Of a DNA stretch of 64,000 bases, positions 11,263 to 57,363 are shown piece by piece. The translations under genes and the position numbers were made by a program. The number at the start of each line of letters is the position of its first letter. The stretch's first letter is position 1. Below the pieces are notes generated by a model. That model did not search any database. It was given only the letters and a program-made list of their open reading frames with translations, and was not told the origin of the DNA. Origin of the DNA: an uncultured Ruminococcus sp. (lineage in GTDB: Bacteria; Bacillota; Clostridia; Lachnospirales; Lachnospiraceae); contig CAKRLG010000002.1 of the NCBI GenBank assembly GCA_934359255.1, forward strand, positions 1-64,000, read 5' to 3'.

Positions 11263-11349
11263 TATTAAGATATAATAAAACAACAAGAGCCAAAAAACTC
11301 CGTCCCCAATGGCATCATCCCCAGGAAAATTCATAATACATCCTACCTC

Positions 11350-11566
11350 CAGCCAACAGCCGAGAAACCGGGCAGGGACAGCGGGATCAGAAAGGGGGAC
11401 ACTTTGTGGGCGGTTAGGGCAAGCTTTGAGATCCGGCACCTACGTAGACTTTCGCGAGGGTCAGCTGACCCTCGTGAATCTAGTCGAAGTTGGTGACTAG
11501 CTCAAAGTTGCCCTGCCCACGTCCCCCGTCTGATCCCGCTGTCCCTGCCCGGTTTCCCGGCGTCCG
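11350..11566. repeat. Structured repeat R1, copy A
   Basis: A 217-base element that folds almost completely on itself. From outside in: a perfect 26-bp helix (11364-11389 with 11531-11556); an internal loop; GGGGGAC/GTCCCCC; a five-base ACTTT bulge; GTGGGC/GCCCAC; a GGTT bulge; AGGGC/GCCCT; and AGCTTTGAG/CTCAAAGTT. The apex holds CTACGTAG, a 20-base perfect palindrome (11455-11474) and a CTAGTC/GACTAG hairpin. Conserved end motifs are CAGCCAAC (11350-11357) and GCGTCCG (11560-11566). Copy B at 57162-57363 shares ends and core but not the outer helix. Not recognised as a known RNA or mobile element; transcription strand unknown. It lies between the YczE-like terminator and the AraC stop. Confidence 0.85.
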
Positions 11567-35781: not shown

Positions 35782-35851
35782 TACCGAATGGTTTGGCGGA
35801 TTGCGCGAGTACGAAGTATGGAGCAATCTGGTGTTGTTAAATAGAAAAGAA

Positions 35852-35993
35852 GTAACTGTTCAGTAGCCACTGTACCGCGAGGTGTTTTGGCATGAATATG
35901 CCAAAATCCCGAGGCATACAAGCCAAAATGCCATCACCGAAGGTGATTTTAAATGCATTTTGGCTCGTAACTGTGAAGGTACTGAACAGTTAC
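35852..35993. repeat. Structured repeat R2, full-length copy
   Basis: A 142-base element closed by a perfect 14-bp terminal inverted repeat (GTAACTGTTCAGTA 35852-35865, TACTGAACAGTTAC 35980-35993). Inside are TTTTGGCAT-GAAT-ATGCCAAAA (35885-35906) and a 10-bp GCCAAAATGC/GCATTTTGGC stem (35922-35931 with 35955-35964) that encloses CACC-GAA-GGTG. It forms a three-way junction if single-stranded. A partial copy sits at 14842 and end-motif fragments at 22201, 26846 and 60981. It codes for nothing visible. It may be a MITE-like or REP-like element. Confidence 0.7.
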
Positions 35994-36072
35994 GAGAAGA
36001 AATACTTTACAGTGCCCGGAAATTCAGATAAAATATTTCGTGGTAAGATAATAAAGTAAGACAGGAAGATAC

Positions 36073-56773: not shown

Positions 56774-57161
56774 AAAGTAAACAATGTGTTACCTGAAAGA
56801 CGGTACACTAGGAAATTATCTACATAGAAAAGTAAGCGTATGAGAACACGACTTGCTTTATGCAATATTATAATGTTAAAAAGAAATAGCAATCACTTTG
56901 GCGTGTGGGATGCTATTTCTTTTTATTTATAGAATTATCTATATAAGATAGAACTAAGAACCCACTAACAATAAAGTGGGAACTTCCATTGGGTTTAGAG
57001 GGCATCAAATAGTCAGAACAACACATACTCCTTTTCGTTCAGTTATCCATTTTTATTTTCTATTACAATAAAAATAGAATACATGTTTGAAAGTATTTGC
57101 AATTATAATACATTATTCTGATTTCATAATATACTCTATAGAATTTTCACTTTTGCAATTT
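56774..57161. other. Long AT-rich intergenic region
   Basis: No gene. Apart from the terminator at 56878 it holds a CCCAC/GTGGG hairpin (about 56967-56986) and A/T-rich DNA up to the R1 repeat copy B. Confidence 0.5.
56878..56927 (+). terminator. Terminator after the M24 peptidase gene
   Basis: Perfect 14-bp stem AAAAAGAAATAGCA / TGCTATTTCTTTTT (56878-56891 with 56911-56924) followed by more T. Confidence 0.85.
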
Positions 57162-57363
57162 CAGCCAACGAACAGCATCATGCAGTGGTTTGGTCTGCAG
57201 GCAGCACTTTATGGGCGGTTAGGGGAAGCTTTGAGATCCGGCACCTACGTAGACTTTTCGCGAGGGTCAGCTGACCCTCGTGAATTGTAGTCGGAGTTGG
57301 TGACTAGCTCAAAGTTCCCCTGCCCATGCTGCCAGCAGACCAAACCACTGCATGATGCGTCCG
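57162..57363. repeat. Structured repeat R1, copy B
   Basis: A 202-base element sharing end motifs (CAGCCAAC 57162-57169; GCGTCCG 57357-57363) and inner core with copy A at 11350-11566. The outer helix, a perfect 24 bp between 57175-57198 and 57335-57358 apart from a small loop further in, has unrelated sequence. Inner pairs change together: copy A GTGGGC/GCCCAC is ATGGGC/GCCCAT here, and AGGGC/GCCCT is AGGGG/CCCCT. Bulges ACTTT and GGTT and the apical palindrome are unchanged. It ends about 40 bases upstream of the GntR-icd-citrate synthase promoter. Confidence 0.85.

Follow-up and report, generated by a model that had tools for sequence, protein, structure and literature searches.

R1, dispersed DNA hairpins of gut Lachnospiraceae with conserved loops and a variable, paired outer helix

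Two R1 hairpins in the window

The window, i.e. the whole 64,000-nucleotide stretch of DNA that was analysed, carries two copies, A and B, of a hairpin repeat that we refer to as R1. Their features are as follows (the basis for each assignment is given in brackets):

11349..11566, + strand: copy A, whole hairpin with both feet (fold, covariance model match)
11349-11358, + strand: copy A, 5' foot CCAGCCAACA (sequence)
11365..11390, + strand: copy A, P1 5' arm (variable outer helix; 26 perfect pairs) (fold)
11401..11520, + strand: copy A, conserved core with ACTTT, P2, GGTT, P3, ATCC loop, P4, CGNAG/CGNAG loop, P5, the apical palindrome and their partners (alignment of copies)
11401-11405, + strand: copy A, bulge ACTTT (sequence)
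11412-11415, + strand: copy A, bulge GGTT (sequence)
11455..11474, + strand: copy A, 20-base apical palindrome (sequence)
11530..11555, + strand: copy A, P1 3' arm (variable outer helix) (fold)
11562..11566, + strand: copy A, 3' foot GTCCG, conserved and unpaired (sequence)
57161..57363, + strand: copy B, whole hairpin with both feet (fold, covariance model match)
57175..57198, + strand: copy B, P1 5' arm (variable outer helix; 24 perfect pairs) (fold)
57206..57327, + strand: copy B, conserved core, running from the ACTTT bulge as far as the P2 3' strand (alignment of copies)
57261-57280, + strand: copy B, palindrome (sequence)
57335..57358, + strand: copy B, P1 3' arm (variable outer helix) (fold)
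57359-57363, + strand: copy B, 3' foot GTCCG (sequence)

The predicted RNA folds of copies A and B have energies of -157.4 kcal/mol (z -17.04) and -131.4 kcal/mol (z -13.78), respectively, and in both cases none of 200 shuffles equalled the value; in copy A an imperfect stretch extends the helix outward beyond the 26 bp. A covariance model built from 36 copies from outside the window returned exactly A and B in the window, both on the + strand (E = 3.6e-32 and 1.1e-28), and no Rfam family matched in the window at the gathering score, the weak matches to miRNA precursors falling below it. A preliminary description had taken A and B to be hairpins with shared end motifs, two bulges and a 20-base palindrome, which the coordinates and z-scores bear out, and its observation that the outer helices of A (26 bp) and B (24 bp) are perfect yet unrelated in sequence also holds. 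Its view of R1 as a pair of copies stands only insofar as both are real; they are better seen as members of a many-copy family.

The window also has a second repeat of approximately 150 bases at 35845-36000, copies of which are present in L105 (1183-1327 and 2059-2214) and are 89-91% alike. In the window this repeat consists of the outer arms GTAACTGTTCAGTA and TACTGAACAGTTAC plus two inner hairpins, and in L231, as judged by eye, its inner stems look different yet palindromic between conserved stretches, a habit reminiscent of R1.

Fixed loops and a free outer helix

From the outside inward, R1 is built of P0 (in some copies; weak or absent elsewhere), a foot loop formed by CA/G and C/GTCC, and the variable helix P1, inside which follow the 5-nt bulge ACTTT, P2, the 4-nt bulge GGTT, P3, the ATCC internal loop and P4; after P4 come a symmetric CGNAG/CGNAG loop, P5 and the apical hairpin. 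The inner unpaired parts are common to genera with differing outer helices, and the feet CA/G and C/GTCC are conserved around the variable helix (116 copies scored of 133 unique ones). With respect to length, 50 of 66 de-duplicated ungapped P1 helices are 30-35 bp long, in a count that admitted only helices of 22-37 bp, and several other genera show a small extra internal loop in P1. Twelve of the 133 unique copies are without a good outer helix.

That P1 covers approximately three turns, with a fixed length and a free sequence, suggests a spacer. We infer that P1 is a spacer of about three helical turns, the sequence of which is immaterial, and that the unpaired motifs, the feet and the length of the outer helix are kept by selection, presumably because they are read by a protein.

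In an alignment of 28 copies, 17 of the 48 pairs show changes on both sides. For the 36 copies from outside the window, 86.5% of the cells are paired (66.7% in shuffles), both-sided changes are seen for 45 of 48 pairs and the covariation score is 0.472 (0.161 in shuffles), with the reservation that this alignment was fitted to the model of the first 28 copies, towards which its counts lean. The covariation of the inner stems that had been noted between A and B is thus present in both sets. Outer helices that are constant between copies had been named beforehand as an outcome contrary to the idea of a variable helix, and such helices occur in part: they are much alike between copies in G003 and G408, but they are still paired, and those of G003 still change on both arms.

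Distribution and copy number

The R1 family is carried by 19 of 397 Lachnospiraceae genomes (16 of 334 genera). In an order-wide draw, two of 295 genomes carry R1, both Lachnospiraceae, and in a phylum-wide draw one of 398 does, namely G001 itself; both draws applied stricter filters together with an Oliverpabstia-centred model, which distant members may escape. G001, which is taken as Oliverpabstia intestinalis, is the nearest genome compared and shares 24% of the window's sampled words. The O. intestinalis loci comprise 34 distinct R1 places, and the whole-genome search of G004 gave 59 matches, which reduce to 40 distinct places, some of them partial, after second-strand hits are dropped. 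R1 is, in short, a dispersed hairpin family in the DNA of gut Lachnospiraceae.

Copy A has no match in the phages or plasmids searched and the core pattern has none in the viral contigs searched, and on these grounds we rejected a phage or plasmid element. Pattern matches in L065 and L067 (contigs from Planctomycetales and Faecalitalea) were dropped as chance since the covariance model finds nothing there. A literature search outside the supplementary tables of structured-RNA screens yielded no description of the R1 family, although one may exist.

Genomic setting, doublets and terminal repeats

To the count of gene settings (window, G001 and G004) 64 elements were submitted, of which 10 that overlap an ORF, including copy B over a probably spurious frame, and two with one flank were dropped. 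Among the remaining 52 copies with clear flanks, 29 sit between convergent genes, and the p-value for the gene setting, 0.0012, is not independent as G001 and G004 orthologues were counted separately. The right-hand gene points at R1 in 38 of the 52, the GTCC foot being a median of 28 nt from the gene end; the left-hand gene likewise points at R1 in 38 of the 52, with the CA foot a median of 230 nt off.

Many R1 copies are single and others form divergent doublets (a minus hairpin followed by a plus hairpin), which were seen in G004, G003, G031 and L034. Between its two feet the G003 doublet spans 471-482 bp at six of seven measured loci, and 396 bp at one, and is flanked by inverted repeats of the GTATACTTTTTTGT type (GTATAC-type). 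This terminal-repeat pattern has 21 occurrences in G003 at ≤1 mismatch vs one for the reversed control, and two copies in G258 have in common a 574-bp unit that bears a related end repeat; a search of G001, G031 and G259 with the G003 pattern gave no terminal repeats. One solo hairpin, L226, has both terminal repeats, and its arms come from the two hairpins of a doublet and are unpaired on the outside. Single hairpins may be the remains of doublets, which would also account for why R1 lies closer to the gene on one side than on the other.

A third repeat, of approximately 147 bases and with 86-98% identity, lies next to several of the R1 copies of G001 and G004 and was not found in the window. 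Its copies are:

L141 1-147, L147 286-432, L117 2315-2461, L078 4524-4669, L050 1227-1373 and L109 966-1112: third repeat

Moreover, L091 (G004; neighbourhood of 1501-1637) is approximately 160 bases longer between matched flanks than L076 1011-1147 (G001), and in an alignment that wrongly set the two loci in opposite orientations, and on which no claim is based, the additional stretch seems to lie in the apex of a hairpin, as a repeat inside a repeat.

Mobility and loss

Similar R1 units occur at different loci and R1 is a mobile family, in keeping with what had been suggested from copies A and B. The same P1 is present in six G003 loci on different contigs, which indicates that new copies inherit their arms. 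In G004 the hairpin is absent from site A (spacing 13 vs 312 bases) and from site B (50 vs 618 bases), and G001 retains a remnant at site A. At two further sites G001 has lost R1; GGG or GGGG repeats mark the joint, and one of these sites keeps a 10-base piece of an arm. Palindromes are well known to be lost between short repeats. No target site duplication was readable at two empty sites.

The IS200/RAYT-type transposase domain PF01797 is present in 13 of 19 carriers and 13 of 20 non-carriers and was not found in six R1 carrier genomes; given this lack of association with R1 carriage, mobilisation by RAYT/IS200 was rejected. A Pfam scan of ten ORFs beside the G003 terminal repeats gave no transposase, nine of the ten being assigned to other families or to none, and the genes at these places are ordinary host genes or without a family.

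Changes on both arms of P1

Nine orthologous loci, matched by both flanks (identities of approximately 79 to 100%) and ungapped, were compared, having been picked from all cross-genome pairs with similar arms, the majority of which are not orthologues; the gapped orthologue pairs L064-L099, L069-L090, L075-L104, L076-L091 and L086-L101 were left out. Among the 281 P1 pairs there are 15 both-arm Watson-Crick changes vs 13 one-arm changes, and copy B differs from its O. intestinalis orthologue by four both-arm changes and a single one-arm change. By our own arithmetic, if 10% of sites had changed in each arm, chance would give about one complementary double change. In G003, which has 25 distinct hairpins, 23 were scored, two being skipped as their arms come from two different hairpins and are unpaired on the outside, and the motif filter left out L145. 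Only two of 621 cells are not Watson-Crick, and 17 of 27 columns carry at least two Watson-Crick types, with 23 of the 31 further types being transversion-like; part of this variety in pair types goes back to old divergence of the doublet's two kinds of hairpin. The orthologue and G003 counts agree with the earlier claim that drift alone cannot keep the arms paired and that something renews them.

Three loci are informative with respect to how this might come about. Specifically, in L145 one arm has changed and the other has not, between two paired alleles, and there is one C.U pair; in L141 the reverse complement of the 3' half has taken the place of the 5' half, such that the loops are erased and the copy is now a palindrome; and L127 (G031, 1374-1770) has an arm of approximately 130 bp that matches its partner to 97% and is otherwise unmatched in its genome. 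These events are what template switching is described to do, as far as the account in PMC8794818 goes. The L141 palindrome and the L127 arm are DNA copying events, and we hold that the outer helix, at least, is maintained as DNA. For rRNA, figures given in PMC8794818 are that 78.5% of two-step changes hit G-U or U-G pairs and that 61% of instantaneous changes are of the transition type, the R1 counts being of another kind and only loosely comparable.

As a separate observation, the outer helix of L127, which is fourfold longer, still ends in CA/G and C/GTCC, i.e. the grammar of the ends survived.

Interpretation

Our data suggest, with somewhat better than even confidence, that R1 is the long hairpin of non-autonomous dispersed repeats laid out like REPINs or MITEs, in which the loops are kept by selection and the arms are renewed by DNA template switching. 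The unit would be one hairpin or two divergent ones with the GTCC feet outward, and the youngest-looking families would be those bounded by GTATAC-type terminal inverted repeats. A mutation would arise in one arm, and replication template switching (quasipalindrome correction), which is the presumed agent, would copy one arm from the other, whereby the change would either spread to both arms or be erased. Complementarity of the arms would then be upheld mainly at the DNA level, with selection keeping the loops, the feet and the helix length, presumably for being read by a protein. Against a mobile repeat of this kind is that neither a transposase nor a target duplication turned up in the ORFs and empty sites inspected. 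Against template switching is that the orthologues show one-arm and both-arm changes in about equal numbers, a pattern that strong selection for pairing also allows, and against renewal everywhere are the unrestored arms in two of the 25 G003 hairpins and in L226 as well as the 12 of 133 copies without a good outer helix.

A possible but clearly less probable reading is that R1 is a structured RNA, either a 3'-UTR element or a small RNA, where selection on the transcript keeps the pairing and the internal loops bind a protein or an RNase. The strong covariation in the 28 and 36 copies, the position of R1 copies at gene ends and the restriction of covariance model matches to the + strand within the window are all in line with this. 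The core also has more G.U than A.C (71 vs 35, besides 119 at two constant G.U pairs; + strand), in an alignment likewise fitted to the structure of the model. However, the outer helices have no wobble strand preference: in 79 of the 133 unique copies, taken as ungapped and 22-37 bp long, there are 33 G.U vs 24 A.C among 2464 pairs (p = 0.29), in addition to 27 other mismatches. A terminator-like control gave 15 G.U vs 3 A.C (28 stems), and 18 vs 10 under a wider rule (48 stems) where it is no different from P1 (Fisher p 0.48-0.64), so the wobble test is weak and its control depends on the rule. Other points that speak against an RNA are the prevalence of transversion-type double changes in G003, the copying events in L127 and L141, the lack of a visible conserved upstream promoter in the 60-odd bases of flank, and the fact that where R1 abuts a gene end the transcript of that gene would bear the strand opposite to the modelled one. 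Given the infirm wobble control and the excess of G.U in the core, an RNA stays a serious rival, above all for the core. An intrinsic terminator was rejected, as neither strand has a regular T-run following the hairpin in the flank lists, inspected by eye.

It is unlikely, in our view, that R1 is a hairpin mobile element that is read via its loops and feet, has the sequence-free helix of fixed length as a ruler, and has arm-to-arm copying built into its own, single-stranded or rolling-hairpin, life cycle; if this were true, such copying would give a stem able to take any sequence and always nearly perfect. Still less probable is a single-stranded or rolling-hairpin element taken simply as one where each round of mobilisation copies one strand into both arms. 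Conserved unpaired bases and feet on a hairpin, doublets with their feet outward and copies with inherited arms would fit, but both-arm change occurs in orthologous copies that have not moved, and Y1 HUH transposases (PF01797, the one HUH group searched) are not associated with R1.

Finally, the suggestion in the preliminary description that the helix is a guide-like sequence, i.e. that R1 is a guide, RNA or DNA, which matches its targets through the variable helix, fits the variation of the arms from copy to copy around a constant core but is very improbable and was, together with the idea of captured targets, rejected after arm searches in G031, phages and plasmids: the 132-base arm of L127, the only arm among the other copies to be searched genome-wide, has besides its partner a best G031 match of 16 bases (E = 0.44), no match in phages and one 39-base plasmid match at E = 0.1, the arm stretches of A and B (26 and 24 bases) share no 15-mer with other DNA compared, the window's own genome excluded, and arms are inherited and then drift in new copies.

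Compensatory change normally counts as proof that an RNA is functional. R1 offers dozens of loci per genome in which a helix changes on both arms, often by transversion and with few intermediates, and thereby makes the share of DNA template switching in compensatory change directly testable. The family adds a class of large extragenic hairpins to Lachnospiraceae, members of which structured-RNA screens could mistake for RNA genes, and its conserved loops and fixed-length spacer predict a binding protein.

Comparison with known systems

The GTAG- and CGTC-tagged REPs and REPINs, as far as they are set out in PMC3733652, resemble R1 in being dispersed extragenic palindromes with an unpaired foot tag (in R1 C/GTCC, with CA on the other side), in forming inverted dimers and in preferring gene ends and convergent pairs; the CGTC class is there without a dedicated transposase. 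The differences are that REPs are 20-40 bp long, with stems of 8-9 bp in the CGTC class, whereas R1 is approximately 200 nt long, contains several internal loops that are conserved and has an outer helix of free sequence, and that Clostridia are not among the hosts given for CGTC REPs in that account (PMC3733652). The GTCC feet of R1 doublets point outward, unlike in REPs. With the GTAG class R1 shares inverted dimers, but it is not a GTAG-tagged palindrome of 20-40 bp, its feet being CA/G and C/GTCC, and it shows no association with the Y1 transposase domain PF01797. Of the CGTC class it has only the tag-like GTCC/CA feet and neither the 8-9 bp stem, the 4-5 base loop, the CGTC tag nor the CCA tail; in place of the short stem it has one of more than 60 pairs with internal loops. 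Because size, internal loops and free stem sequence differ, we do not file R1 with the REPs or REPINs.

As in MITEs, R1 is short, multicopy, intergenic and without an ORF of its own, with terminal inverted repeats in G003 and G258; it differs from these in G001, G031 and G259, where the G003 pattern finds no terminal repeats. In the two genomes with terminal repeats R1 may work like a MITE, though no target duplication was readable at the two empty sites and the ten ORFs scanned in G003 gave no partner transposase.

Integron attC sites act as a folded single-stranded structure with conserved unpaired bases and a variable stem sequence. They resemble R1 in the fixed unpaired bases and the free stem and differ in size, motifs and context.

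Quasipalindrome template switching, as presented in PMC8794818 and, in so far as they treat it, PMC7202029 and PMC8604942, is close to what we propose for the arms: imperfect inverted-repeat arms become complementary when one is copied from the other, in place. In the account of PMC8794818 it is a mutational process acting mostly on short stems, whereas R1 is a mobile family with conserved unpaired motifs and helices of 30 to 130 bp.
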